From contig JAJQBX010000018.1 in NCBI GenBank assembly GCA_021203065.1, forward strand, positions 1 to 64,000: a DNA stretch of 64,000 nt, given 5' to 3'. Origin of the DNA: Oscillospiraceae bacterium. GTDB lineage: Bacteria > Bacillota > Clostridia > Oscillospirales > Ruminococcaceae. The notes below the pieces were generated by a model that was given only the letters and a program-made list of their open reading frames with translations, was not told the origin of the DNA and did no database searches. Below, piece after piece: positions 1,664 through 23,489 of the stretch; the stretch's first letter is position 1; each line of letters begins with the position of its first letter. The translations under genes and the position numbers were made by a program.

Positions 1664-2563
1664 CTAACGCTTCTTTCCGTCCTTGAGCTCCCATGGCTTG
1701 ATGAGGGAGGCTTCACGATACATCTCGCAATAGCTTCTGTGGCGGCTTTCGGATATTTTGCCGTCACCTAAAGCTTCCAGAATCGCACAACCGGTCTCTT
1801 TTGTGTGCGAGCAGTCCTGAAAACGGCAGCTGCCGAGGTATTCACGGAATTCAGGGAAGCAGTCTGCGAGCTCGTCTTTAAAAATGGTGTCGTACTTTCC
1901 GGTCTCGAATGTCGAGAAGCCGGGAGTGTCAGCTATGTAACCGCCGCAGTCGAGCTTGAAAATATCTACTCTGCGTGTGGTATGCTTGCCTCTTCCAAGG
2001 CTTTTACTTATCTCGGCTGTTGCAAGCCCAAGCTCCGGGCAGATATTATTGATGGTGGAGGACTTTCCCGAACCGGAATTTCCGCAGAATGCGGAAAACT
2101 TGCCCCGAAGAGCCTCTTTCACCTCATCACAGCCATCGCCGGTTTCATTATTGACCTCGAAAACGGGGTAAACTCCCCGATAGATCTTCACATAGTCGTC
2201 AGCAGGCTGCTTGTCCGTCTTCGTGAATACTATCACCGAATCTATTCCCTTATACTGAGCTACAGCGGAAAACTTGTCGAGCATCAGAAGATTCGGCGGA
2301 GGCTCGCAGGTCGACATTATGAAAACCATCTGATCGAGGTTCGCAAGCGGCGGTCTTATAATCTCGTTACGCCGGGGCTTGATTTCTGTGATAAGCGGTT
2401 CTGCGCTCTCTGCCGTCTCAAAAATGACATTATCGCCACAGCAAGGAGAGATATTCCTTTGCCGGAATATCCCTTTTGCCTTGCAGGTGTAAATTTCTCC
2501 ATCAAGTGACGCTACCTTGTAGCCTGTGCCGAAAGCACTTATTATAACTCCGTCCAAAATCAT
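1664..2563 (-). CDS. rsgA: Ribosome small-subunit GTPase RsgA
   Basis: A 299-residue circularly permuted GTPase that helps mature the 30S subunit. Visible in order: an N-terminal OB fold, the G4 motif FTKTDK (about 113-118), the P-loop GNSGSGKSS (about 161-169), G3 DTPG (about 215), and the C-terminal zinc site C-x4-C-x-H-x5-C (about 245-258). Length and motif order fit RsgA/CpgA/YloQ. Its stop lies 54 bp before spoVM and its start overlaps the end of prkC by one base. In Bacillus this protein is a substrate of PrkC, which agrees with the shared operon. Confidence 0.95.
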   Translation of the reverse strand: MILDGVIISAFGTGYKVASLDGEIYTCKAKGIFRQRNISPCCGDNVIFETAESAEPLITEIKPRRNEIIRPPLANLDQMVFIMSTCEPPPNLLMLDKFSAVAQYKGIDSVIVFTKTDKQPADDYVKIYRGVYPVFEVNNETGDGCDEVKEALRGKFSAFCGNSGSGKSSTINNICPELGLATAEISKSLGRGKHTTRRVDIFKLDCGGYIADTPGFSTFETGKYDTIFKDELADCFPEFREYLGSCRFQDCSHTKETGCAILEALGDGKISESRHRSYCEMYREASLIKPWELKDGKKR

Positions 2564-4740
2564 CAGGAATCAATAATTGTGAACGCAGTCGTCAGATAAG
2601 TAGTGCGATAGTATGTGCCGGTGTCGAAATCGATCTCATACTCGGCGAACGTCATCTGAAGTCCCGTTCTCGGGCTCTTTGCCATGACATAAACGGTCAT
2701 TGAGCCCTCACCGGTGAGCGTTACAGAAAGCGTTCCTCCGGCGTACTGTGCGCCGTTCATTGTGATTGTGCTGGTGAGTGCTTCACCGTTGTCGCTGTTA
2801 TATACAGTTATATAATAGGTGTTGGTTGCCTTTGCCGGAATGTCGATATTGAGCACAACTGTATTTCCGGTGGTGGTTGTGTCGGTATTATCCGTATCGG
2901 TTGTTCCTCCATCGATGATGATTCCGGGATATGTGGTAGTAGTATCGCCGCCAAGATCCTCCTCGTCGAGGTCTACCTCCTCTTCCTCGGTTACAGTTCC
3001 GTCGGAGACATAGATTGTGACTGTTGTGTTTCTCGTTACCGTTTCACCGGCTTCAACGCTCTGGTCGATTACCGTTCCGGCTTCTTCGCTCGATTCAACA
3101 TACTGGGTCTTTGCGACGAGATAGTTATCCTCAAGAAGCGTCTGGGCTTCGGATGCGGTCTTTCCTACAAGCGAGGGAACTGTTGTATCCTCAACAGAAG
3201 GACCGATACTGACATAGACCTTGACGGTTGTCCCCTCTTCAACAGTTGAGTAAGCAACAGGGTCGGTCTTGACGACATAGCCGGATGAAATATCGTCGCT
3301 TTCAATCTCGACTCGCTGAACTGTGAGCGATTCGCCTGTCAGTGCGGCGTAAGCGGATGAATAATGATAATTGACGACGTCGGGGATTGTAACGGTTCGA
3401 GTACCCTTACTTACAGTAACCTTTATGGCGTCGCCGACCTTGACAATTCTGCCCTCAGCCTTTTCCTGCTCCATGATAATGCCAGACTCATATTCTGAGC
3501 TGTATTCTTCCGAAGCGACAAGCTGGATTTCCGGATAAAGCGAACGAGCTTCATAGTAGTTTAGCCCTATGAGATTTGGCATTGTGTAGTCATTCGATGA
3601 AGATGCAGTTGTCTGGAATGCGCCCATGATGACATTTGCCATGAATAGCGTAGCTACGATGATGGCGGTTACTGTCATTGCCGCAAGAATCGGGAGGATA
3701 TAGTTGTGGCGTGGACGATCGTCATCGTCGTCATCGTCATCCTCTTCGGGATATTCCTCCGGTTCTTCCTGAATCGGCTCTGGCTTTGGCTTTTCTTTTT
3801 TGACCTTCGGCTTCGCTGTGCGCTTTTTGGTGACAGAAGCGATGAGCTTTCCTGTTCCCGACTGCTGTTCCGGTCTCTTGACCGGCTCGTCGAAGTAGCC
3901 GAATGTAACGCTCTGGTCGTTCTTGAAAGCCTCGATGTCACGGATCATACCGGACGCTGACTGGTATCTCTTTGTCGGGTCCTTCTCCATAGCACGGAGG
4001 ACTATTTCCTCAAGACCCTTATAGATTGACGAGTTATATTCTGACGGTCTTACCGGCTCTTCGTTCATGTGCTTCAGGGCTACTGCAACGGGAGTTTCGC
4101 CGTCAAAGGGCTTTCTTCCGGTGAGCATTTCATACATCATGGCACCAACAGAATAGATGTCTCCACGCTCGTCGGTGCGCTCGCCCCTTGCCTGTTCGGG
4201 AGAGACGTAGTGAACAGAGCCCATGGTGCGCTCGGTGTTCGAGCCGGCGTTCTGGCGTGAGAAGCAAGCGATTCCGAAGTCCATCACCTTGATTGTGCCG
4301 TCGGCAAGGAGCATCACGTTCTGCGGCTTGATGTCACGGTGGATGATTCCCCTGTCGTGGGCAAGCTGCAAAGCCCTCAGAATCTGGATGGTATAGTGGA
4401 CACATTCACGCCACTGGAGCATTCCTTTCTGCTCAATGCACTCCTTGAGGGTGATGCCGTTGATATACTCCATTACTATATACTGGAGGTCATGCTCATA
4501 ACCGACATCGAAAATCTTTACTATATTAGGATGAGACAGAACGGCGATGGCTCTGCTCTCATTTCTGAAATATCTGACGAATTCCTCGTTCTCGGAAAAT
4601 TCCCGCTTAAGTATCTTTACAGCGACGGTTCTGTTTTCCATTATGTCTACGCCTTTATAGACGTCAGACATTCCGCCGACACCGATAAGCTCGGTGATCT
4701 GGTATCTTCCGTCAAGCTTCAGACCGATGAATTTATCCAT
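2563..4740 (-). CDS. prkC: Ser/Thr protein kinase with PASTA domains (PrkC)
   Basis: A 725-residue membrane kinase. The cytoplasmic kinase domain (about 10-270) has the Gly loop GVGGMSDVYKG, the VAVK lysine, HRDIKPQN and DFG. A basic/acidic linker with a run of eight Asp (about 333-340) leads to one transmembrane helix (about 347-370). Outside follow three PASTA repeats (about 387-590), which bind muropeptides in this family, then an Asp/Glu/Thr-rich spacer and a beta-rich C-terminal domain of about 100 residues. PrkC senses cell-wall fragments and, in spore formers, triggers germination. It lies 21 bp after the prpC phosphatase gene, its usual partner. The number of PASTA repeats is read by eye. 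Confidence 0.95.
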   Translation of the reverse strand: MDKFIGLKLDGRYQITELIGVGGMSDVYKGVDIMENRTVAVKILKREFSENEEFVRYFRNESRAIAVLSHPNIVKIFDVGYEHDLQYIVMEYINGITLKECIEQKGMLQWRECVHYTIQILRALQLAHDRGIIHRDIKPQNVMLLADGTIKVMDFGIACFSRQNAGSNTERTMGSVHYVSPEQARGERTDERGDIYSVGAMMYEMLTGRKPFDGETPVAVALKHMNEEPVRPSEYNSSIYKGLEEIVLRAMEKDPTKRYQSASGMIRDIEAFKNDQSVTFGYFDEPVKRPEQQSGTGKLIASVTKKRTAKPKVKKEKPKPEPIQEEPEEYPEEDDDDDDDDRPRHNYILPILAAMTVTAIIVATLFMANVIMGAFQTTASSSNDYTMPNLIGLNYYEARSLYPEIQLVASEEYSSEYESGIIMEQEKAEGRIVKVGDAIKVTVSKGTRTVTIPDVVNYHYSSAYAALTGESLTVQRVEIESDDISSGYVVKTDPVAYSTVEEGTTVKVYVSIGPSVEDTTVPSLVGKTASEAQTLLEDNYLVAKTQYVESSEEAGTVIDQSVEAGETVTRNTTVTIYVSDGTVTEEEEVDLDEEDLGGDTTTTYPGIIIDGGTTDTDNTDTTTTGNTVVLNIDIPAKATNTYYITVYNSDNGEALTSTITMNGAQYAGGTLSVTLTGEGSMTVYVMAKSPRTGLQMTFAEYEIDFDTGTYYRTTYLTTAFTIIDS

Positions 4741-4761
4741 TCAAAACCTGCTCCTTTCCTT

Positions 4762-5490
4762 TTAAACCGATATGAGTACGGCTGTTATGTTATCCTTGCC
4801 GCCCCGGGAGTTTGCCGCATCGATGAGCTCGTTTACGGCATGTTCGATTGGCTGTTTGTAAGATAACTCGTATATCTGCTCGTTTGTCAGATAGTTGGTG
4901 AGTCCGTCGGTGCAGATGAGAATATATTCACCGCCGGTGAGGTCAAGCTCAAAGTAGTCAGTCTCAACCATTTTATCCACTCCCACAGCACGTGTGATGA
5001 CGTTTTTCATCTTGTGACTGCGCATCTCGTCCTCACTTATCATTCCGTTTGAGTAGAGATATTCTACAACCGTATGGTCGTTTGTTATCTGGGTGATGCC
5101 ATTATCGTCCATGAGATACGCCCTTGAATCGCCGACACTCGTTATACTTAAGAGATTCTTATGTACCAGTGCGGCGACACAAGTCGTTCCCATTCCGGCA
5201 TCGTGTTCGTCCTCGAGGCTCTTGTTGTAGACAATTGAGTTTGCCGCCTCAACAGAGGTTATAAGAAGCGATTTGACGCTCTTTGGCTCCATATCCGGTC
5301 TGTAACTGAGCTGGACACGCTCGTAGACAGCGTTTGAGGTCATCTCGCTGGCAAGACCGCCGGATGCCGCTCCGCCCATGCCGTCACAGACGACAGCGAA
5401 AACCGTGTTGTCATCTATTGCACAGATTCTGAATTTATCCTGATTTTCTTCCCGAAGCTTTCCTATATCGGTTTTTCCAGCTGCAAACAC
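4762..5490 (-). CDS. prpC: PP2C-type Ser/Thr phosphatase PrpC (Stp)
   Basis: A 242-residue metal-dependent phosphatase. PP2C motifs in order: REENQD near 13-18, CDGMGG near 35-40, GDSRAYLMD near 118, CTDGLTN near 193 and GGKDNITAV near the C-terminus; the aspartates bind the Mn/Mg pair. It removes phosphates placed by PrkC, whose gene follows directly. No membrane segment, so cytoplasmic. rlmN ends 17 bp upstream, so it is read as part of the yicC operon. Confidence 0.95.
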   Translation of the reverse strand: MFAAGKTDIGKLREENQDKFRICAIDDNTVFAVVCDGMGGAASGGLASEMTSNAVYERVQLSYRPDMEPKSVKSLLITSVEAANSIVYNKSLEDEHDAGMGTTCVAALVHKNLLSITSVGDSRAYLMDDNGITQITNDHTVVEYLYSNGMISEDEMRSHKMKNVITRAVGVDKMVETDYFELDLTGGEYILICTDGLTNYLTNEQIYELSYKQPIEHAVNELIDAANSRGGKDNITAVLISV

Positions 5491-5507
5491 ATTGTCACCT
5501 CCAATTG

Positions 5508-6539
5508 CTAAATTTCGTATTCCCGCCTGAGTTGTCCGCAGGCGGCGTCTATATCTGCGCCAAGAGTCCTTCTTACTGTCGCATTCACGCCAAGACCCGT
5601 CAGCTTTTTACAGAAGCTTTCGGCGGCTGGTCGTGACGAGTGGAACTCCCGCTCTTTTATCTTATTGACTGGTATTATATTTATATGCGACGGCATTCCG
5701 CTTACTAATTTAGCAAGGGCTTTTGCGTCCTCCATCGTATCGTTAGTGCCGTCTATGAGGGCATATTCAAATGAGATTCGTCTGCCGGTTGTAGCGAAAT
5801 AGTCACGACAGGCTTTCATCAGCTCTTCGATGTGGTATCGGTTATTGACCGGCATCAGCTCGCTTCGCTTTTCATCAGTAGTTGCGTGAAGAGAGATTGA
5901 AAGGGTGAGCCCGAGATTAAGTGAAGCCAAGTCATATATCCTGTCTACAAGCCCGCAGGTTGAAAGGGAAACGTGCCGCAGGCTCATATTCGTGCCCTTT
6001 TCACTCGAAAGAAGCATAAGAAATCTTACGACATTATCGAAATTGTCAAGCGGCTCGCCGATTCCCATCAGGACTATGCTTGAGACCTTGCGTCCGGATA
6101 TTCTTTCTGCTTCATAGAGCTGCAAGAGAATTTCTGAGGGTTTGAGGCTTCGCTTGAAGCCGGCAATAGTTGAAGCGCAGAACCTGCAGCCCATCTTGCA
6201 ACCGACCTGAGTTGAGACGCAGAGAGAATCGCCATGCTCATAGCTCATGAGGACTGTTTCAATATGGTTGCCGTCGGAGAGCTCGAACAGGAACTTTTCG
6301 GTTTCATCGAGGCTTGATTTGAGGTTTCGCACACATGAAAGCTTTTCTATATAGAATTCGCCCGAGAGCTTTTCACGGAGCGGAAGCGAAAGATTAGTCA
6401 TCTCTGAGAAATCGGTTACCCGCTTTTTGTGAAGCCATTCGTAAATCTGCGATGCCCTAAAGCTCTTTTCGCCGAGGGCTTTCATACTTTCCGTCAGCTC
6501 TTCAAGGCTCATTGATAGTATATCGGTCAAGATTTTCAC
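5508..6539 (-). CDS. rlmN: 23S rRNA/tRNA adenine-C2 methyltransferase RlmN
   Basis: A 343-residue radical-SAM enzyme that methylates C2 of A2503 in 23S rRNA and A37 of some tRNAs. The iron-sulphur motif C-x3-C-x2-C (CKMGCRFC) is at about 112-119, and the catalytic mono-cysteine of the family lies in DAACGQLR near 335. The GEPLDN motif is present. Its start overlaps the end of rsmB by four bases (ATGA type), so the two RNA methyltransferases are translationally coupled. Confidence 0.96.
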   Translation of the reverse strand: MKILTDILSMSLEELTESMKALGEKSFRASQIYEWLHKKRVTDFSEMTNLSLPLREKLSGEFYIEKLSCVRNLKSSLDETEKFLFELSDGNHIETVLMSYEHGDSLCVSTQVGCKMGCRFCASTIAGFKRSLKPSEILLQLYEAERISGRKVSSIVLMGIGEPLDNFDNVVRFLMLLSSEKGTNMSLRHVSLSTCGLVDRIYDLASLNLGLTLSISLHATTDEKRSELMPVNNRYHIEELMKACRDYFATTGRRISFEYALIDGTNDTMEDAKALAKLVSGMPSHINIIPVNKIKEREFHSSRPAAESFCKKLTGLGVNATVRRTLGADIDAACGQLRREYEI

Positions 6540-7834
6540 CTTATTCTTAAGAATTTCGCCATGAAGAATCCGTCGCCGCCATAGGGACAGGTTGCGGGGG
6601 TTATGGTTACCTTGTAGTCGTCGAAGTGACTGAGCTTACAGCCCTCGAAATCAGGGTTTTCCTGCAGGAATTTCTCTGCAATCATGTCGTTCTCGGCACG
6701 ATTCAGTGTACAGGTTGAGTAGACTAATATGCCTCCCGGCTTCACATAACGTGATGAAGTCTTCAGTATTTCATACTGCACTGCCGGGAACTGACTCAGG
6801 TCTCTCTCCGATGAGTAGTTATATTTGATCTCCGGCTTGCGCCCTATCACTCCGAGACCGGAGCAAGGGACGTCGCAGAGGACTCTGTCAGCCATAGGGA
6901 TATTATCATTAAATAGCTTTGCGTTGTTTGTAGAGGCTGAGATTATACCAAGCTTCAGCCTTTTTGCGCCCTCTGTGATTAACTTAGCACGCTTTTCGTG
7001 AAGATCAAAGGCTAAAACTCTACCGGTATCATTCATGATTTCGGCTGTTGTAAAAGCCTTTCCTCCGGGCGCGGAACAGACATCCAAGACGGTTTCGTAT
7101 TCTTTTGCGCCGAGCTCAGCGGCACATAGCTGGCAGGAGGCGTCCTGAACGTGGAGCATGCCTTTTTTGTAGGCTGAGAGCTTTTCGGCGGTGCTGCAGT
7201 TTTTAAGGTCGTAGCAGTCTCTGATTGCTTCATTCGGAACGGCTTCTATGCCGTCATTGGCAAGCTCAGCAATTATATCTGAAATATCGAATTTACAGGT
7301 GTTGAGCCTGACGGTTGTCGGAGGTCTTCCAAGTGAAGACTTGAGAATAGAAAGTGCAACCTCTTCGCCATAGTCCCGAAGCCACATATTGACGAGCCAT
7401 TCGGGGCAGGAATACTCAAGGGATAAGCTACCGTCCGGAAGCTTCTTTCCGTCACGGATGAAGCTTCTGAGAACTGCATTTACGAAGCCGGAAGCAGACT
7501 GATTATTAAGCTTTGCAAGCTTTACGCTCTCGTCGACGGCGGCACTGTCGGGGACTGAGTCCATATATAGAAGCTGATATACTCCCATCCGGAGGATTTC
7601 CCGGACTTCGAGAGAAAGCTTTTCTATAGGTCTGCGGGAATACTTCGCTATCACTGCATCAAGGGTGATTCTTCTTTCGATTACGCCGTAGTATAGTGCC
7701 GATATGAAGCGTCGGTCGATGTCGGAAAGGTCACGGTTCTTTGATAAGGTATTGTCGAGGGCTAACCCGGAAAAGCTCGAATTTTTCTCTACCTTGACAA
7801 GTAGCCCCAAACAAATCTCTCTCGGTGTCTGCAT
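6536..7834 (-). CDS. rsmB: 16S rRNA m5C967 methyltransferase RsmB
   Basis: A 432-residue protein: an N-terminal NusB-like RNA-binding domain (about 1-140) and a SAM-dependent Rossmann domain with DVCSAPGGK (about 245-253), DVPCSG (about 318-323) and the catalytic YSTCTLNR (about 369-376). The two cysteines are those of m5C methyltransferases. It matches the Sun/RsmB family in length and domain order. It sits between the YugP peptidase gene and rlmN, as in many Clostridia. Confidence 0.94.
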   Translation of the reverse strand: MQTPREICLGLLVKVEKNSSFSGLALDNTLSKNRDLSDIDRRFISALYYGVIERRITLDAVIAKYSRRPIEKLSLEVREILRMGVYQLLYMDSVPDSAAVDESVKLAKLNNQSASGFVNAVLRSFIRDGKKLPDGSLSLEYSCPEWLVNMWLRDYGEEVALSILKSSLGRPPTTVRLNTCKFDISDIIAELANDGIEAVPNEAIRDCYDLKNCSTAEKLSAYKKGMLHVQDASCQLCAAELGAKEYETVLDVCSAPGGKAFTTAEIMNDTGRVLAFDLHEKRAKLITEGAKRLKLGIISASTNNAKLFNDNIPMADRVLCDVPCSGLGVIGRKPEIKYNYSSERDLSQFPAVQYEILKTSSRYVKPGGILVYSTCTLNRAENDMIAEKFLQENPDFEGCKLSHFDDYKVTITPATCPYGGDGFFMAKFLRIR

Positions 7835-16295: not shown

Positions 16296-17687
16296 TCAGA
16301 ATTTGAGGCTCTTCGGGGTTCTTGCATAGGGAATTACGTCACGGATGTTGGCGACACCGGTGATGTACATGAGGATTCTTTCAAGACCCAAGCCAAAGCC
16401 GGAGTGAACCACTCCACCATACTTACGAAGATCCAGATACCACTCAAGGCTGCTTCTGTCCATATGCATGTCCTCCATCTTTTTAACGAGGACGTCATAG
16501 TTCTCCTCACGCTGAGAGCCGCCCATCAGCTCGCCCACTCCGGGTGCGAGGAGATCGCATGCGGCAACCGTCTTTCCATCGGGATTAAGCTTCATATAGA
16601 ACGCCTTGATGTCCTTCGGGAAATCTATCAGGAATACAGGTCCCTTGGCGACATGATCGCAGATATAGACCTCATGCTCCTTGAAGAAGTCCATTCCCCA
16701 CTCTACCGGGTTCTCAAACTTGACGTCGGCATGCTGGAGGTAGTCAACAGCCTCAGTATAGGTGATGACCTTGAAGTCGGAGTTCATTACGTGCTCGAGC
16801 TTATCTATAAGGTCGTGCTTTTCGGAAACGAAGTCGTTCAAGAACTTCATCTCGTCGGGGGCACTCTCCAAAACATCTTTTATAATATACTTGATGAGTG
16901 CTTCCATGACTGCCATGTCGCCCTTGAGGTCGCAGAATGCCATCTCAGGCTCTATCATCCAGAATTCGTTGAGGTGATAGGGGGTGTTGGAGTTTTCGGC
17001 ACGGAATGTAGGACCAAACGTATAGACCTTGCCAAGAGCCAGTGCGAACGGCTCGACATGGAGCTGACCGGAAACGGTGAGGCAGGCATGCTTGCCGAAG
17101 AAATCGTTCTGATAGTCGCCGTCTTCACGGGTTGTGACGGTGAATGTCTCGCCTGCGCCCTCGGCGTCATTGCCGGTGATAAGCGGCGTGTGGATATAGC
17201 TGAAGCCGTTCTCACGGAAGAACTGATGAATCGACTGAGAAACGATTGAGCGGATCTTGAATACCGCCATAAATGTATTGGTTCTCGGTCTTAAGTGCGG
17301 GATTTCTCTCAAAAATTCAAGGGAATGACGCTTTTTCTGCAAGGGATAGCTGGCGTCGCATCCGCCAAGAAGTGTAATCTCGCTGGCATTTATCTCAAAA
17401 GGCTGCTTAGCCTCGGGAGTATGGATAAGCTTGCCGGTGACGCTTACTGCGCACCCGGTCAGAAGCTTTGAAATTTCAGCATAATTCGAAAGCTTTTCAG
17501 CCTCATAGACAACCTGACAGTTTGAGAAGCATGAGCCGTCATTAAGAGAGATGAAGCCGATGTTGTTATTTGAGCGGTTAGTCCTCATCCAGCCCTCGAC
17601 GGTAACAGTAGCCCCATCAGCGGCATTCTCGTCAGGCAGAAGCCCTTTCACGCTCTTATATATCTCGTCAATCAGAAGTTTTGGCAT
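16296..17687 (-). CDS. asnS: Asparaginyl-tRNA synthetase
   Basis: A 463-residue class II synthetase that charges tRNA-Asn. N-terminal OB-fold anticodon domain (about 20-120, with VTVEGWMRTNRSNNNIGF), class II core with motif 2 region FGPTFRAENSNTPYHLNEFW and motif 3 GFGLGLERILMY near the C-terminus. Length equals the long E. coli-type AsnRS rather than the 430-residue Bacillus one. The start at 17687 follows AAGGGGA; an ATG seven codons upstream lies before this site. No T-box leader precedes it. Confidence 0.96.
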   Translation of the reverse strand: MPKLLIDEIYKSVKGLLPDENAADGATVTVEGWMRTNRSNNNIGFISLNDGSCFSNCQVVYEAEKLSNYAEISKLLTGCAVSVTGKLIHTPEAKQPFEINASEITLLGGCDASYPLQKKRHSLEFLREIPHLRPRTNTFMAVFKIRSIVSQSIHQFFRENGFSYIHTPLITGNDAEGAGETFTVTTREDGDYQNDFFGKHACLTVSGQLHVEPFALALGKVYTFGPTFRAENSNTPYHLNEFWMIEPEMAFCDLKGDMAVMEALIKYIIKDVLESAPDEMKFLNDFVSEKHDLIDKLEHVMNSDFKVITYTEAVDYLQHADVKFENPVEWGMDFFKEHEVYICDHVAKGPVFLIDFPKDIKAFYMKLNPDGKTVAACDLLAPGVGELMGGSQREENYDVLVKKMEDMHMDRSSLEWYLDLRKYGGVVHSGFGLGLERILMYITGVANIRDVIPYARTPKSLKF

Positions 17688-17722
17688 AGCATATGTCCCC
17701 TTTAACATTATTTGCTCTGTTT

Positions 17723-17789: not shown

Positions 17790-17976
17790 TTACGGCGGAA
17801 GTTCGCTTTCAGCGAACTTCTGTGCTCGCCTGCGGCTCGCACACCCCTCCACCACCGGCTTCGCCGGCGGTCCCCCTCCCCTTTCAGGGGAGGCTTTGAA
17901 TGCCCCTTTAAAAGCTTTCGAGAGAATACATATAGGCTCCCCTGAAAGGGGAGCTGTCAGCGAAGCTGACTGAGGG
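17790..17976. repeat. Palindromic MITE-like element 1
   Basis: A dense set of inverted repeats without coding pattern, filling the gap between the first SPxTG gene and asnS. It holds GAAGTTCGC/GCGAACTTC (about 17800-17822) and a pair of opposed copies of CTCCCCTTTCAGGGGAG (about 17876-17893 and 17936-17953). At 17951-17974 lies GCTGTCAGCGAAGCTGAC, which recurs in opposite direction at about 18955-18975. This suggests a non-autonomous mobile or dispersed element of gut Clostridia. Confidence 0.6.
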
Positions 17977-18037: not shown

Positions 18038-18757
18038 TTATCTTCTCTTAGAAGAAACTACAGCGATACCAGCGATTGCCATCGGAACGAGGGCAAGTGC
18101 AACACCGGTGTCAGGGGAAGAAGATGAAGAAGATGAAGAGCTGGACTCAGTAGAAGTCTCAGTTGCATCCTCAGAAGCCTCAGCGGTCTCAGAAGAAGAA
18201 TCATCCTCAGAAGTCTCCTCAGTAGTCTCAGGAAGGATTACAGAGATAGAAGAAACCTTGTAAGCGTTAGTCTCAGAAGTGTTGATTACGAGAGTGATAG
18301 TGCCGCCAGAAAGTGCACCCATCTCCTCATAACGAGCATAAACAGCATTTGCATCATAGGTTACGGTGATACCGTCATCAGACAAGCAGTCGATGATACC
18401 CTTGTCAGGCTCATCAGAAGATGAATGACCAGCAGTGCCGAGCCAGCATCTCTCGTCGCCAGTTGAATACCAGCTATCGATGAAGCAGAAGTTCTCATAA
18501 GTGCCATCAGCTTCTTCGGTGTTCTCAGTGTACTGGATATGAACTTCGGTATCTCTTGTGATAACGAGAACAGCACCCTCTACCTGAAGAGCCTCAAGGA
18601 AGCCCTCGGGATCATCGATTTCCTGAGTTGCCCAAGAACTAGAGTTGAAGAAGACGTGCTCCTCGGGACCCCAGATAACTTCGTCATCAGCAAAAGCAAC
18701 GACGCTTACTGAGAGAACCATGACTATCGCCAAAACGATTGACAATACTTTTTTCAT
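18038..18757 (-). CDS. Secreted SPxTG-anchored surface protein, paralogue A
   Basis: A 239-residue protein of unknown function. Signal peptide of about 24 residues (MKKVLSIVLAIVMVLSVSVV, cut after AFA). The middle (about 25-180) is rich in beta-type and aromatic residues and fits no family I recognise. A Ser/Glu/Thr-rich linker leads to SPDTG, a hydrophobic stretch and the tail SSKRR. This is the layout of a sortase substrate; SPxTG-type signals are used by Clostridioides SrtB. The ends are nearly identical to those of the three next genes while the middles differ. Own promoter, leader and terminator. A role at the cell surface is inference. Confidence 0.82.
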   Translation of the reverse strand: MKKVLSIVLAIVMVLSVSVVAFADDEVIWGPEEHVFFNSSSWATQEIDDPEGFLEALQVEGAVLVITRDTEVHIQYTENTEEADGTYENFCFIDSWYSTGDERCWLGTAGHSSSDEPDKGIIDCLSDDGITVTYDANAVYARYEEMGALSGGTITLVINTSETNAYKVSSISVILPETTEETSEDDSSSETAEASEDATETSTESSSSSSSSSSPDTGVALALVPMAIAGIAVVSSKRR

Positions 18758-18769
18758 TTGTGAATTCCT

Positions 18770-18785
18770 CCAAAATATATTTTGG
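18770..18785 (-). promoter_or_regulatory. 16-bp palindrome at the ribosome site, gene A
   Basis: CCAAAATATATTTTGG, a perfect palindrome whose last GG is the start of the GGAGG ribosome site (18767-18771). The same element lies before all four SPxTG genes. In RNA it can fold as a 6-bp stem with a UAUA loop; in DNA it is a perfect dyad. Confidence 0.75.
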
Positions 18786-18801
18786 TGTTGAAACCATATC
18801 T

Positions 18802-18830
18802 ATAATAACACACCGGGTTGGATTTGTCAA
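18802..18830 (-). promoter_or_regulatory. Promoter of SPxTG gene A
   Basis: TTGACA (18825-18830), 17 bp, TATTAT (18802-18807). The sequence just downstream, AGATATGGTT, recurs at the same place in the sister promoters. Confidence 0.8.
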
Positions 18831-18944
18831 TAAATATCCGGGAATTCGTAAAAACTTTTTTGACGGCGATGAAAAAGACCGCTGGTTAGTTGGCGGCTCG
18901 CACACCCCTTAGTCAGCTTCACTAACCGCACTCCCTGCGGTCGT

Positions 18945-19067
18945 GCGCCCTCTCAGTCAGCTTCGCTGACAGCTCCCCCAGAGGGGGAGCCAAGAGTTAC
19001 GTTCCTTGCAAATCTCGGCTCTCCCTCTGGGAGAGCTGGCGCACCACAGGTGCGACTGAGAGGGCGC
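18945..19067. repeat. 123-bp MITE-like element 2
   Basis: Bounded by perfect 14-bp terminal inverted repeats GCGCCCTCTCAGTC (18945-18958) and GACTGAGAGGGCGC (19054-19067). Inside are a second pair, AGCTCCCCCAGAGGGGGAGCC-type against GGCTCTCCCTCTGGGAGAGCT-type, and AGCTTCGCTGACAGCT, which is shared with element 1. No coding potential. It lies between the terminator of gene B and the promoter of gene A. Confidence 0.75.
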
Positions 19068-19101
19068 GAGCGAAGCGAGCGTATTGTTTAACTGACCCTA
19101 A

Positions 19102-19134
19102 AGAAAAAGACCGCAAGCCGAAGCCTACGGTCTT
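19102..19134 (-). terminator. Terminator of SPxTG gene B
   Basis: AAGACCG (19107-19113) pairs with CGGTCTT (19128-19134); TTTTTCTTT follows on the minus strand. Nearly the same sequence as the terminator of gene A, so the two 3' ends appear duplicated. Confidence 0.85.
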
Positions 19135-19154
19135 AATCTATGACAGAAAAGTGA

Positions 19155-19817
19155 TTATCTCTTCTTGGAGCTTACTACTGCGAAGCCAGCGATTGCCATC
19201 GGAACGAGAGCAAGTGCTACACCGGTAGCAGGAGAAGTAGAAGTAGTGGTCTCCTCAGCAGCCTCGGTGGTCTCTTCGGTAGCATCAGTAGTGTCAGCCT
19301 CAGCAGCTTCGGTGGTCTCTTCCTCAGCAGAAGCATCAGCAGAATCAGGAACGGTAACAGCAACGTTCAGAAGAAGCTCGCCGCCGCAGATGAACTGATA
19401 CCAGTCAGAAGTGGAAACGATGTCATAAACGGTCTGACCGTCGATGGTAAGAACCTGATTGTCGCCGTCAGTCTCGAGAGTGTAAGCAACGTATCCATCA
19501 GTACCCTCAGTGTTGCCGCTGAAGCAGATAGCAGTGGTGCTAGCATTGAAGCCTACTTGGAACCAGCCAGCAGTGTTGCTAAGGGTCAAAACAAGCTTTG
19601 AACCTTCCTGATTGAGAGCCTCGTAGATAGCAGCCATATCCTCGAGAGAGATAAGAGCTGTATCATCCTCGTAAGAGTAGCCGTAGTTATCCCAGCTGCC
19701 TGCTGACTCAAGAGCACCGGTGAGATCAACAGAAATAACAGTGGTGTCAGCGAATGCAACACAAGTCAGGGAGAGAACCATAACGAGTGCTACAGCGATT
19801 GATAAGAATTTCTTCAT
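19155..19817 (-). CDS. Secreted SPxTG-anchored surface protein, paralogue B
   Basis: A 220-residue protein. Signal peptide MKKFLSIAVALVMVLSLTCV, cut after AFA; central domain of about 140 residues with several Trp/Tyr and the phrase SKLVLTLSNTAGWFQVGF, which resembles strands of a beta-sandwich binding module (weak inference); Ala/Glu/Thr linker; SPATG, hydrophobic stretch and SSKKR tail. The start at 19817 follows GGAGGAATTC; the ATG five codons upstream lies between the ribosome site and this start and is not supported by the sister genes. Confidence 0.82.
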   Translation of the reverse strand: MKKFLSIAVALVMVLSLTCVAFADTTVISVDLTGALESAGSWDNYGYSYEDDTALISLEDMAAIYEALNQEGSKLVLTLSNTAGWFQVGFNASTTAICFSGNTEGTDGYVAYTLETDGDNQVLTIDGQTVYDIVSTSDWYQFICGGELLLNVAVTVPDSADASAEEETTEAAEADTTDATEETTEAAEETTTSTSPATGVALALVPMAIAGFAVVSSKKR

Positions 19818-19828
19818 TTCGAATTCCT

Positions 19829-19844
19829 CCAAAATATATTTTGG
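19829..19844 (-). promoter_or_regulatory. 16-bp palindrome at the ribosome site, gene B
   Basis: Perfect copy of CCAAAATATATTTTGG, running into GGAGG as in gene A. Confidence 0.75.
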
Positions 19845-19859
19845 TTTAAAACCTCTTCT

Positions 19860-19888
19860 ATCATACCACTAATATCTTCGGTTGTCAA
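19860..19888 (-). promoter_or_regulatory. Promoter of SPxTG gene B
   Basis: TTGACA (19883-19888), 17 bp, TATGAT (19860-19865), followed by AGAAGAGGTT. Confidence 0.8.
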
Positions 19889-19927
19889 CCGAAATCTCGA
19901 AATTTACCGGGAATTTACACAAAGATA

Positions 19928-19962
19928 AAAAATCGAGGCGTGCCATAAAGCACACCTCGAAA
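19928..19962 (-). terminator. Terminator of SPxTG gene C
   Basis: TCGAGGTGTGC pairs with GCACGCCTCGA on the minus strand, followed by TTTTTTATC. Sequence differs from the A and B terminators. Confidence 0.85.
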
Positions 19963-19978
19963 TTTTACTCAAAGGAAA

Positions 19979-20590
19979 TTATCTTCTCTTGGAGCTTACA
20001 ACAGCGATGCCAGCGATTGCCATCGGGAGGAGGGCAAGAGCAACACCGGTGGAAGGAGAAGTGGTGGTGGTTTCCTCAGCAGCCTCGGTGGTCTCCTCGG
20101 TAGCCTCGGTAGTGTCAGCCTCTTCGTCAGCAAAGGTGTCCTCAGTAGCAGCAACTTCGTCAGAAGTGGACATCAGAGCGACGCCGGTAAGGTTTGCATA
20201 GTCCTGACTGTCAGCCCACCAGTTAAGAACGATACCGTCAGCAGGATCAACGCCTGAAGCCTCGAAAGCTTCTGCAATGGTGGTCAGCGGAACGGTGATA
20301 ACGCCGTCTTCGTTAACCTGATGGATGTCGTAAGCGGTGCCGTAGCCAGTGTAGCTGACCCAGTCGGAATCGCAGAGAGCCATAGGACCATAGCCGATCT
20401 TGGAGCTGTCGGTTACTTCAAAGTAAATAGCGAGATAAAGGGTTTCATCAGTGAAGTCAACGCCTTCAAGAAGAGTAAGAGTTCCGGAAGCGGTGAGATC
20501 CTGAGTAGCAACTGTGGTGTCAGCGAAAGCAACGACGCTCAGGGAGAGAACCATTGCGAGGGCGACAGCGATGGATAAAAATTTCTTCAT
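19979..20590 (-). CDS. Secreted SPxTG-anchored surface protein, paralogue C
   Basis: The shortest paralogue, 203 residues. Signal peptide MKKFLSIAVALAMVLSLSVV (16 of 20 or more positions as in B), cut after AFA; central domain of about 120 residues with no recognised family, containing LYLAIYFEVTDSSKIGYG and a Trp pair; Glu/Thr linker; SPSTG, hydrophobic stretch, SSKRR. The linker and C-terminal 60 residues are close to identical with paralogue B, the middle is not. Confidence 0.82.
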   Translation of the reverse strand: MKKFLSIAVALAMVLSLSVVAFADTTVATQDLTASGTLTLLEGVDFTDETLYLAIYFEVTDSSKIGYGPMALCDSDWVSYTGYGTAYDIHQVNEDGVITVPLTTIAEAFEASGVDPADGIVLNWWADSQDYANLTGVALMSTSDEVAATEDTFADEEADTTEATEETTEAAEETTTTSPSTGVALALLPMAIAGIAVVSSKRR

Positions 20591-20600
20591 TAGAATTCCT

Positions 20601-20616
20601 CCAAAATATATTTTGG
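20601..20616 (-). promoter_or_regulatory. 16-bp palindrome at the ribosome site, gene C
   Basis: Perfect copy of CCAAAATATATTTTGG, running into GGAGGAATTC. Confidence 0.75.
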
Positions 20617-20631
20617 TTTATAACCATCTCT

Positions 20632-20660
20632 ATAATAACACTCCTGAAAGCATTTGTCAA
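20632..20660 (-). promoter_or_regulatory. Promoter of SPxTG gene C
   Basis: TTGACA (20655-20660), 17 bp, TATTAT (20632-20637), followed by AGAGATGGTT. Confidence 0.8.
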
Positions 20661-20681
20661 CCGGAAATGCGAAATTTCCGC

Positions 20682-20719
20682 AAAAAATCAAGGCGCACCC
20701 ACAGTGGGCACGCCATGAT
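20682..20719 (-). terminator. Terminator of SPxTG gene D
   Basis: ATCATGGCG pairs with CGCCTTGAT, with a further GCCCAC/GTGGGT stem inside; TTTTTTG follows on the minus strand. Confidence 0.85.
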
Positions 20720-20736
20720 CTTAAACTAAGAAGAAA

Positions 20737-21483
20737 TTACTTTCTCTTGGAGCTTACAACTGCGATACCTGCGATTGCCATCGGGAGAAGTGCCAATGCA
20801 ACGCCGGTGTCAGGAGAAGAAGCGGACTCGGTGGACTCGGAGGACTCAGAAGCCTCAGAGGTCTCGGAGGAAGCTTCCTCAGAAGTAGTGTCAGCCTCAG
20901 CGGAAGAATCATCAGAGGAAGAACCGGTGGTGATTACATAAACGCCATAGGTCTTTGCGCCGGAGCAAGCACCGTCAACCCACTGGAAAGAGCAGGTGGA
21001 AATGTCGTCGCCGTGCTCAGCCATAAGAGCAACGAACTCAGCAGCATCGATGATGATGTAAGCATAATCGCCCTCGATAACAACGTCCTCAGCAGCCATC
21101 AGATAGATGGTATCGGAAGCAGGCTCTTCATCAGGATAGTTGAAGTGAGCAAGGTAGGTCTGCCAAGAATCGGTGGTCTGGATACCATACTGGTAGCCGT
21201 AGCCGTCCTCGCTAGAACCCGCAATGGCGTCAGCCTTGACAACAATCTTAGCACCATCAACGACAACAGCTGCTGCAAACTCAGTGCCATAATCGTAATC
21301 GGTGGTAAGCTCGGAATCGGTGCTCCACCAGCCGTTGTCCATCGGGAAGAGATGCTCATAAACAGAGAGAATTTCAGAAGCAGTACTGTTGATGTACTCA
21401 TCATCGGTCTCAGCTGCAAATGCGCATACGCTTACAGAAAGCATCATGACGATCGCCAGAGCGATTGATACAAATTTTTTCAT
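20737..21483 (-). CDS. Secreted SPxTG-anchored surface protein, paralogue D
   Basis: The longest paralogue, 248 residues. Signal peptide MKKFVSIALAIVMMLSVSVC, cut after AFA; a middle of about 170 residues rich in Tyr/Trp/Asp with GAKIVVKADAIAG, again beta-type but of no recognised family; Ser/Glu linker; SPDTG, hydrophobic stretch, SSKRK. First in the direction of transcription. The nearest polysaccharide-related gene is the GH10 xylanase at 22211-23431, which makes glycan binding a possible but untested role. Confidence 0.82.
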   Translation of the reverse strand: MKKFVSIALAIVMMLSVSVCAFAAETDDEYINSTASEILSVYEHLFPMDNGWWSTDSELTTDYDYGTEFAAAVVVDGAKIVVKADAIAGSSEDGYGYQYGIQTTDSWQTYLAHFNYPDEEPASDTIYLMAAEDVVIEGDYAYIIIDAAEFVALMAEHGDDISTCSFQWVDGACSGAKTYGVYVITTGSSSDDSSAEADTTSEEASSETSEASESSESTESASSPDTGVALALLPMAIAGIAVVSSKRK

Positions 21484-21493
21484 TTGAATTCCT

Positions 21494-21509
21494 CCAAAAT
21501 ATATTCTGG
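21494..21509 (-). promoter_or_regulatory. Palindrome at the ribosome site, gene D (one mismatch)
   Basis: CCAGAATATATTTTGG on the minus strand: the same element with one substitution in the arm away from the ribosome site. The GGAGG side is intact. Confidence 0.7.
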
Positions 21510-21726: not shown

Positions 21727-22005
21727 ATGCAATTTGAATGGGACGAAAACAAAAACCTGATCAACAAAGAAAAGCACGGAATCTCGTTTGAGGTCGCTTC
21801 GCTAGTTTTCAGCGACCCATACTACATCGAGATGTACGACTTTGAACATAGTCTTGACGAAGACAGATATATGGCAATCGGTAAGGTTGACGACATACTT
21901 TTTGTCGTGTTTACCGAGCGCAAGGAGTCAATAAGATTGATTTCCGCCAGAATTGCAACCCCGACTGAAAGGAGACTTTATTATGACCAGAACAGTAACT
22001 CTTGA
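21727..22005 (+). CDS. brnT: BrnT family toxin (DUF497)
   Basis: A 92-residue protein with the BrnT pattern: start MQFEWDENKNLINKEKHGISF, then D-E-D-R-Y-M-A-I-G near 48-56, and the C-terminal R-L-I-S-A-R-x-A-T-x-x-E-R-R-x-Y. BrnT toxins are RelE-fold ribonucleases that stop translation. The partner gene starts within the last 23 bases of this one. Own promoter; a shared terminator follows. Confidence 0.9.
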   Translation: MQFEWDENKNLINKEKHGISFEVASLVFSDPYYIEMYDFEHSLDEDRYMAIGKVDDILFVVFTERKESIRLISARIATPTERRLYYDQNSNS

Positions 22006-22168
22006 AGAATTGAAGCCATTGACGGATGAACAGCGTGAAGAAATCAGGGCGGCGGCTAAGAAGCCGATTGTGTTTGACGAGGATTGCCCGGAGCTCTCTC
22101 CGGCTATGGTAAAGGCTTTCCAATGTTCTGTGGCTCAGAGGAACAGACGGATGGCGGCAAGAAACTAA
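21983..22168 (+). CDS. Short putative antitoxin of the BrnT pair
   Basis: A 61-residue acidic-then-basic protein (TLEELKPLTDEQREEI, then FDEDCPELSPAMVKAF, and a basic end RNRRMAARN). Standard BrnA antitoxins have about 100 residues with a C-terminal ribbon-helix-helix DNA-binding domain; that half is not visible here. The D-E-D-x-P-E-L-S phrase resembles the toxin-facing half of BrnA. The start at 21983 is set by AGGAG eight bases upstream; translation is coupled to brnT by a 23-base overlap. Function is assigned from context. Confidence 0.7.
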   Translation: MTRTVTLEELKPLTDEQREEIRAAAKKPIVFDEDCPELSPAMVKAFQCSVAQRNRRMAARN

Positions 22169-22182
22169 GCTCAGAATAATTT

Positions 22183-22212
22183 GACCCGACAGATGATGTC
22201 GGGTCGTTTTTT
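22183..22212 (+). terminator. Terminator after the BrnT pair
   Basis: Perfect 9-bp stem GACCCGACA/TGTCGGGTC with a 5-base loop, then GTTTTTTAT. On the minus strand the same hairpin follows the xylanase stop at once, but without a T-run, so it is stronger in the plus direction. Confidence 0.85.
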
Positions 22213-23431
22213 ATGACTTCGATTCCGCCAGATCAATCAGGCTCCAATAGGCGGATTTGAGTTTGTAGTCACGGTCGATGAGGAGGGGGTAGTTGGTTCT
22301 GCCGGAGACGGGGTAGCCGTTTAGCCAGCTCATGCCGTCGTAGTAGCCCCAGAAGACTACTGAGTCGAGGTAACCGGCTTCGGAGAATTCTATGAACATT
22401 TCGAAGATGTCAGAGTAGAGGCTGTCGAACTGCTCGAGGAATTCGTCGGTGAGCTCGACTTCTGTTGAGGTGTCGCTCCATGTGAAGCAGCTGAGGTCGA
22501 GCTCGGTGACTTCAATGACGAAGTCGGGGTCGATGGACTTGAGCTTCATGAGGATTTCGACGTTATTCTTGCAGGTTTCAACGTCAAAGCCGATGTCGAC
22601 GTGCATCTGTAAACCGATGCCATCGATGGGGATGCCCTCTTCGAGCATGCTCTTGACCATCATGTACATGCTGATAGCCTTTGACTCAGACGATTCAAGG
22701 CTGTAGTCGTTGATTATAAGGCGGGCGTCGGGGTCGGCTTCGTGGGCGGCAGTGAATGCAATTTCGATGTAGTCGTAGCTGTCGCCGTCGCCGTCGTAGT
22801 CGCCGATAATCTGATACCACATGGAATCACGGAGTCCGCCGCTGTCTCCCAAAACCTCGTTGCAAACGTCCCAGACGTCGACTTCGCCCTTGTAGTGGCT
22901 GACTATTGTCGTGACATGCTCAATAAGGCGTTCGACGAGGACATCAGCGGAAACGGTGTTGCCGTCATCGTCATAGAAGAACCAGTCGGGGCACTGGGAG
23001 TGCCAGACAAGGGTGTGCCCACGGACGGTCTTGTCATACTCGTTGGCAAACTCGACAAGCTGATCGAGAGCGTCGAAATTGTAGACGTCCTCAGATGGGT
23101 GCATGGCGTCCGGCTTGGATTCGTTTTCGAGGGTGAAGACGTTGTACTGCTTAACGAGGATTTCGAATTCCTCTGTGCCCTCGACAAGGTCGCTTATGTT
23201 CATGGCTGTTCCCACCTTGAACCACTGCGCAAAGGCTTCGTAGAGCGACGGGGCGTCCTCGTCATAGGCATAGGTGTTGTCACGGTCGACGGTGACTGCT
23301 TCCTCCTCGGCTTCTGTTGAAGAAGTCGTTACGGCTGAGTCAGGCTCGTCCGACGTGCTTCCGCATGCTGTCATCACGGAAAAGAGAACCGTGAAAGCAA
23401 GCAAGACGGAAAGAAGTTGCTTGAGTTTCAT
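22211..23431 (-). CDS. GH10 endo-1,4-beta-xylanase lipoprotein
   Basis: A 406-residue secreted xylanase. The N-terminus has a lipoprotein signal with SVMTAC as lipobox (Cys about 22), so it is likely tethered to the outer face of the membrane. The GH10 barrel follows: FKVGTAMN, HTLVWHSQCPDWFF (substrate-binding His/Trp), the acid/base Glu in WDVCNEV (about 190) and the nucleophile Glu in EVTELDLS (about 305), then VVFWGYYDGMSW. No carbohydrate-binding module is attached. Start at 23431 is set by GGAGG eight bases upstream. No promoter of its own was found, so it may be read from the pcrA operon. Confidence 0.93.
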   Translation of the reverse strand: MKLKQLLSVLLAFTVLFSVMTACGSTSDEPDSAVTTSSTEAEEEAVTVDRDNTYAYDEDAPSLYEAFAQWFKVGTAMNISDLVEGTEEFEILVKQYNVFTLENESKPDAMHPSEDVYNFDALDQLVEFANEYDKTVRGHTLVWHSQCPDWFFYDDDGNTVSADVLVERLIEHVTTIVSHYKGEVDVWDVCNEVLGDSGGLRDSMWYQIIGDYDGDGDSYDYIEIAFTAAHEADPDARLIINDYSLESSESKAISMYMMVKSMLEEGIPIDGIGLQMHVDIGFDVETCKNNVEILMKLKSIDPDFVIEVTELDLSCFTWSDTSTEVELTDEFLEQFDSLYSDIFEMFIEFSEAGYLDSVVFWGYYDGMSWLNGYPVSGRTNYPLLIDRDYKLKSAYWSLIDLAESKS

Positions 23432-23489
23432 ATAGTGTTCCTCCAAAAATTTATATTCAAAGCGGGTAAATGAACCGCCTTAAACCGGA

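Follow-up and report, generated by a model that had tools for sequence, protein, structure and literature searches.

An array of SPxTG surface protein genes whose cores appear to be exchanged between species of an Oscillospiraceae genus

Surface proteins that combine a constant frame with an exchangeable core are best known from pathogens. In Clostridioides difficile, the variable S-layer cassette (slpA) is thought to be swapped at a fixed locus by homologous recombination (PMC6254364), and the sortase SrtB is reported to cleave (S/P)PxTG peptides (PMC4155245). Streptococcus pyogenes sof encodes a sortase-anchored protein with a hypervariable, recombined part (PMC1782043), and the MASP proteins of Trypanosoma cruzi have conserved flanks around a variable mature middle (PMC5636173), both as in the locus described here. 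This locus, four neighbouring genes (g1 to g4) on contig JAJQBX010000018.1 of an Oscillospiraceae bacterium, lies in a stretch of 64,000 nucleotides that we refer to as the window. Comparison with related species reveals fixed positions (slots, labelled A to D) between a GH10 gene and asnS at which the core of the protein has been replaced, either by another allele of its family or by one of a different family, in a frame of promoter, leader, signal-peptide start, tail and 3′ flank that has been kept. We consider it likely that these genes form an array of small surface proteins, each with a single module, in which the frame is constant and the cores can be exchanged. The features are as follows:

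18038..18757, minus strand: g1, SPDTG protein of 239 residues, slot A; core 18224-18688
19155..19817, minus strand: g2, SPATG protein of 220 residues, slot D; core 19344-19748
19979..20590, minus strand: g3, SPSTG protein of 203 residues, slot C; core 20153-20521
20737..21483, minus strand: g4, SPDTG protein of 248 residues, slot B; core 20914-21411
18041..18139, minus strand: constant sorting tail of g1
19158..19256, minus strand: constant sorting tail of g2
19982..20080, minus strand: constant sorting tail of g3
20740..20838, minus strand: constant sorting tail of g4
18767..18785, minus strand: leader palindrome and Shine-Dalgarno sequence of g1 (CCAAAATATATTTTGGAGG)
19826..19844, minus strand: leader palindrome and Shine-Dalgarno sequence of g2
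20598..20616, minus strand: leader palindrome and Shine-Dalgarno sequence of g3
21491..21509, minus strand: leader palindrome of g4, with one A to G difference, and Shine-Dalgarno sequence
22211..23446, minus strand: GH10 glycoside hydrolase gene, array neighbour on one side (Pfam Glyco_hydro_10, E 2.7e-84)
16296..17708, minus strand: asparaginyl-tRNA synthetase-like gene, array neighbour on the other side, which we take to be asnS judging by its sequence and which serves here as a measure of divergence

All four proteins are built on a common frame of signal peptide, core, acidic Ser/Thr-rich stalk and SP[D/A/S]TG tail. By eye, they have the attributes of sortase-anchored wall proteins: an N-terminal signal peptide and a C-terminal xPxTG motif followed by a hydrophobic stretch and a basic end. 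Their tails are invariant in 21 of the last 33 columns, their signal peptides and 5′ regions align closely, and each gene has its own sigma-70-type promoter (TTGACA / TATNAT, elements located by eye) and a leader palindrome, CCAAAATATATTTTGG, that continues into the Shine-Dalgarno sequence. We take g2 to start at an ATG; the mechanical open reading frame (ORF) would open at TTG 19832. A sequence-only reading of this DNA had proposed four neighbouring genes sharing promoter spacing, leader, signal peptide, linker and SP[D/A/S]TG tail, and the alignments bear this out. Across the 2.36-Mb genome the leader word CCAAAATATATTTTGGAGG occurs ahead of g1 to g4 only, apart from three reads of the palindrome in reverse and one stray with three mismatches; the reversed pattern, used as a control, gave two matches at three mismatches.

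We compared the locus across 31 genomes of the genus, one per species, with the genome of the window falling within the genus group; relatives are named below by our genome labels. The array is present in 11 species with 34 genes in total, and at the ten other loci asnS is found at nine, as is the GH10 gene; the contig of the tenth locus (G001) stops short of asnS. To define slots, the 80 bases that precede the leader were clustered at a distance of 0.28. Slots B and D each hold 11 genes, one per species: the core is of the g4 family in six and of the g1 family in five species at slot B, and of the g3 family in eight and of the g2 family in three at slot D. The nine genes at slot A are all g1 and the three at slot C are all g3 (split 2+1). 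The four genes are thus not found unchanged among relatives, which would have spoken against the earlier reading; species differ in the core family that a given slot carries. This is seen most directly at slot B of G025 and G030, where promoter (78/80), leader (28/30), tail (81/84) and downstream sequence (146/150) are nearly identical and the cores are g4 and g1, respectively. An early summary by core type, from which one unrelated G023 ORF was removed and into which outer-locus ORFs without a matching tail (including one each of G012 and G008) were not entered, had suggested that ends are simply co-inherited with cores; the slot analysis refined this view.

The contrast between cores and ends extends to synonymous sites. 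In a clade of four species (G025, G014, G006 and G030) synonymous divergence (dS) at asnS, compared across ten species with G001 left out because its contig ends before the gene, is 0.12-0.23, and neighbouring genes including asnS range from 0.11 to 0.64 (38 pairs). Cores of the same type at the same slot in these four species have a median dS of 1.26 (0.51-2.02, 15 pairs; rough values), as compared with 0.07 for the signal peptide (0-0.22, 15 pairs) and 0.025 for the tail (0-0.15; 12 pairs rather than 15, as the g1 gene of G006, whose tail reads N, was excluded). Because synonymous divergence is raised in the core only, selection on amino acids alone is not expected to explain the pattern. 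For G000 and G014 the g1 core has a dS of 0.52, and asnS of the same pair 0.98.

Phylogenies point in the same direction. The asnS tree supports the four-species clade at 99/99. The g1 core tree joins G014 with G000 (100/99) and G006 with G009 (100/100), and the g4 core tree joins G014 with G002 (100/99) and G025 with G000 (99/98). When the species clade was forced on the core trees it was rejected by the approximately unbiased (AU) test (p 4e-5 for g1 and 2.6e-8 for g4; the p of 1.5e-61 for g3 is to be read just as a strong rejection). For promoter, leader and first 14 codons the species clade was not rejected at slot B (p 0.51) or slot A (p 0.10), and at slot D it already forms one clade. 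In the promoter-end tree of slot B, G030 (g1) stands beside G025 (99/97), and at slot D the clearest cross-family case is G002 (g2), placed among holders of g3 (80/97). Given the slot contents, the dS contrast and the conflict of core trees with the species clade, we conclude that cores have been replaced between constant ends, between species; judging by the core trees, the sources are other species of the genus. In sliding windows, identity begins to fall within the signal peptide and is regained in the stalk or tail. In the 11 species, all 33 genes whose tail can be read (33 rather than 34, again without the G006 gene) have an x in SPxTG that tracks the core: D goes with families g1 and g4, A with g2 and S with g3. 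The 3′ breakpoint may therefore often lie beyond this residue.

These results support the earlier proposal that constant ends around variable cores mark a set diversifying by recombination, with the exchange shown between species. As regards antigen or adhesin sets, what is seen is exchange between species and not switching within a strain, and the cores fall into a few recurring families and are not freely variable. A search of viral contigs for a phage origin found three stretches matching the g1 peptide pattern, none of which encodes a relative, and no exact copy of the 23-base leader.

How are the proteins held at the surface? The genome (2.36 Mb in 36 contigs) encodes four sortases; the sequence-only reading had noted none in the window. 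Two adjoining genes elsewhere in the genome are class B-like, the type expected in that reading: they match class B models best (116.6 and 119.4 bits) and stay below the NCBIfam equivalog cut-off of 153.75. The curated cut-off of the class B sortase model TIGR03064 is not reached in this genome and is exceeded in one of the 31 genus genomes. Class B-like matches are nonetheless found in 31/31 of these genomes, and two lie side by side in 30/31, as counted from coordinates. The other two sortases, of which one is class C, are located in a region with pilin-like genes (L040, G000:C8:132000-150000) with several repeated lipoprotein-like genes nearby (neighbours assigned by eye). A model of the four array tails, searched against the genome as had been suggested, recovers 16 tails at E 0.0032 or better, 12 of them beyond the cluster. 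The class B-like pair may join the array proteins to the wall, and SPSTG, the motif of g3, is among the peptides reported to be cleaved by C. difficile SrtB (PMC4155245). A point against this assignment is that nine of the 12 tails beyond the cluster are NPTTG, a motif type near NPQTN and NVQTG, which C. difficile SrtB is reported not to cleave (PMC4155245).

We now turn to the cores, which are 123-166 residues long and mutually unlike, as had been noted from the sequence. The best E-values of one core against another by BLASTP and phmmer, about 0.01-0.2 with seven sequences searched, are too poor to be useful, and the cores do not align as ordinary paralogues, although colinear hhalign matches (g1-g2 probability 78, g1-g4 60, g2-g4 48) suggest that the g1, g2 and g4 cores may be remote homologues; g3 was not linked by sequence. 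That no known family would be recognised was likewise confirmed: the four proteins have sub-threshold matches only in NCBIfam and Pfam and nothing over cut-off, including any carbohydrate-binding module (CBM) family in Pfam, profiles of g1 and g3 found no relative in the PDB sequences below E 0.4, and Foldseek added none at E 0.001. The predicted structures of the g1 core (pLDDT 86.1, pTM 0.85) and the g3 core (pLDDT 86.7, pTM 0.80) are both beta-rich and, by eye, have the same order of elements in their second halves, including a strand that runs directly into a helix; both may be beta-sandwiches. Of the earlier description of the cores as beta-rich binding modules, the first part thus agrees with both models, and binding is suggested by predicted structure and by the company the domains keep.

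This company is varied. The g1 core family includes four other proteins of the same genome (two at 39-41% identity), and among the 31 genus genomes, the window's own included, g2 cores are present in four, g3 cores in 11 and g4 cores in eight. A g1 profile run against 394 genomes from the order matched three at E 1e-4, all of the same genus, and also a g4-like protein of G023 (E 1.8e-5); the full g1 protein as query reached two genomes beyond the genus (E 6e-4 to 8e-4). Cores of g1 type form the C-terminal part of several proteins of about 560 residues that have no tail, and other proteins combine g2- or g3-type modules with g1-type ones. The secreted proteins observed at L095-L108, of which many have about 560 residues, share a segment (..NEDYHA....CTVCKEYIG..) that precedes a C-terminal g1-type module; of ten scanned with Pfam, nine had no match at E 0.01 and one had a sub-threshold match. 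A g3-type module is found at the C-terminal end of kinase-like proteins with a zinc-ribbon-like start in five genomes (L167-L171; G002, G030, G025, G006 and G020). The protein kinase domain was confirmed in both of the two that were scanned, a trans-membrane stretch is visible by eye, and these proteins are possible extracellular sensors. In the window's genome, the g3 gene is the only match to the g3-type end of a kinase of this kind. We tentatively raise a broader idea, which we think rather doubtful: a genus-wide pool of exchangeable ligand-binding modules might serve three uses, as singles displayed on the wall in the slot frame, in multi-module secreted proteins and as the outer part of receptor Ser/Thr kinases, with the invariant leader palindrome and near-identical ends kept partly for trade of cores between species, so that binding and sensing specificities would be drawn from the community and not from the parent species alone.

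The cores could be glycan-binding modules whose exchange tunes fibre specificity, forming a surface CBM-like set beside a xylanase-family gene. The GH10 neighbour at nine of ten other loci fits this, as does the recurrence of the modules in large secreted and kinase-like proteins. In the PDB, the g3 model first matches CBM65 from Eubacterium cellulosolvens (top match, E 0.029, TM-score 0.39) and a Bacteroides surface glycan-binding protein, and CBM15 appears at rank 16 for g1. All these fold matches are weak (E 0.005 or worse, top-rank TM-scores about 0.4 or lower), those of g1 are mostly to other proteins (Kex2 first, then viral capsids among others), no CBM was matched in Pfam, and none of 18 module-bearing proteins scanned with Pfam has a glycoside hydrolase domain. 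On balance we regard glycan binding as quite conceivable, somewhat short of probable.

Targets of phages and antibodies typically have exposed parts that are exchanged between constant ends, and the array would fit such targets. In this case exchange would be driven by escape, as may hold for C. difficile SlpA, which is reported as a general phage receptor (PMC10100898). The ratio of nonsynonymous to synonymous divergence (dN/dS) of the cores is below 1 in all measured pairs, which does not favour escape; by analogy it is a tentative option that we would sooner doubt than adopt.

Several observations weigh against an exchange of cores as we present it. At a promoter distance of 0.30 slots A and B fuse. 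The 5′-end alignments comprise only about 163 columns and have little power to reject a clade, the core trees drew long-branch warnings, and the core dS values come from alignments of 46-89% amino-acid identity. In the slot B promoter tree the remaining four species with g1 form a side of their own, separate from those with g4 (82/85), which could reflect one old difference, so that G030 alone is a clear cross-family replacement there. With one genome per species, the comparison saw no switching within species. As to the cores as binding modules, neither the g1 nor the g3 model had a Foldseek match at E 0.001 or better.

If there were no exchange, the genes would be ordinary old tandem paralogues that arose by duplication and whose cores evolved faster than their ends. 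Recognisable families g1 to g4 across species, the x of SPxTG that follows them and the remote likeness of g1, g2 and g4 would all suit such a history, and when all pairs of the 11 species are averaged, ends resemble one another more within a core type than within a genome, as plain inheritance would give. Yet the excess divergence of cores over ends and neighbours is large at synonymous sites too, the species tree is contradicted by the core trees and not by the ends, and species separated at asnS by a dS of only 0.12-0.20 have different core families at slot B. The slot, dS and tree data contradict old paralogy unless the contigs of the relatives are misassembled, and we consider it improbable. 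Misassembly itself, with co-occurring species joined through near-identical ends, is in our view very improbable: nine of the ten array-bearing relatives are titled metagenome assemblies and the ends of close pairs, 90-100% identical over at least 100 bases, might yield false joins, but such joins should give cores identical to those of a second genome, whereas same-type cluster cores of different species reach at most 93.1% DNA identity, and the pattern recurs at three slots.

Preferring exchange, we see import of DNA by ordinary homologous recombination within the conserved ends as the simplest account of how cores would arrive. The class B-like sortase pair would link the proteins to the wall, where the cores may bind outside ligands, with glycans as the leading guess, and imported cores would be kept by selection for a new specificity or against recognition by phages or antibodies.

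On the sense strand the leader word CCAAAATATATTTTGGAGG occurs 34 times in the 31 genomes with zero or one mismatch, once ahead of each of the 34 cluster genes in 11 species; the 47 rows of this search further comprise 11 reverse reads of the palindrome and two strays with two mismatches, and the reversed control pattern gave three matches. Of the 34 genes, 29 have a perfect palindrome, four have an A to G change with which a G-U pair could still form, and one has a T to C change that breaks a pair. The four 59-nucleotide leaders fold no better than shuffled sequences into an RNA hairpin (z +0.33 to -0.55). The folding results and the mostly perfect palindromes together speak neither for nor against an RNA switch; the palindrome may equally well be a DNA operator.

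Runs of at least two small proteins with xPxTG-type tails of their own also occur outside the 11 species, in G018, G003, G023, G017 and G008, and the array layout is therefore wider than this leader. One such locus (L120 of G018, 2982-7128) encodes five successive APSTG proteins with almost identical tails and another leader, i.e. the same layout in a different frame.

Around the array, a BrnT toxin gene (Pfam BrnT_toxin, E 3.3e-26) lies between g4 and the GH10 gene (21727-22168), with a small overlapping ORF, a possible partner, that has no Pfam match; brnT is present at two of the ten other cluster loci. The product of the GH10 gene has, by eye, a lipoprotein-like start. Exact 22-base copies in opposite orientation (17948-17969 and 18957-18978) lie inside longer intergenic stretches beside g1 and are possibly part of a mobile palindromic repeat. 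At 2563-4740 the window also carries a probable PASTA-type Ser/Thr kinase gene (by eye) adjoining a phosphatase-like gene.

A search of a library of open papers returned only analogues or unrelated papers and no account of such arrays in Oscillospiraceae; a description elsewhere is possible. The pattern spans several species of a genus that is Ruminococcus-like and represented here mainly by metagenome assemblies; slots and breakpoints are clear, and the core families have no Pfam or NCBIfam match over cut-off. The host is, from its family, likely of gut origin, and the array illustrates cleanly how such bacteria may remodel their surface. Two questions become open to experiment with it: which force, whether food, phage or antibodies, diversifies the surface in such bacteria, and whether wall-protein modules also enter receptor kinases to act as sensors.

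Among the known systems, CBM65 of E. cellulosolvens Cel5A provides the best-ranked solved structure for the g3 model; there is no sequence match, and g3 is not a member on this evidence. The MASP proteins, unlike the array, belong to a huge gene family of a eukaryote and are not known to be anchored by sortase. The sof gene differs in being one long gene that is hypervariable at its start, with no array of slots under a common leader. C. difficile resembles the array in its SPxTG signals and has a class B sortase (PMC4155245), to which the class B-like pair here would correspond; strain 630 has a single sortase, whereas 30 of the 31 genomes of this genus have two adjacent class B-like matches. 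Finally, the slpA cassette and the array are alike in being variable surface-protein cassettes at a fixed locus, but slpA is one S-layer gene cassette in one species, whereas the array consists of several small sortase-type proteins set in slots, with the same leader and tail and with exchange across species.

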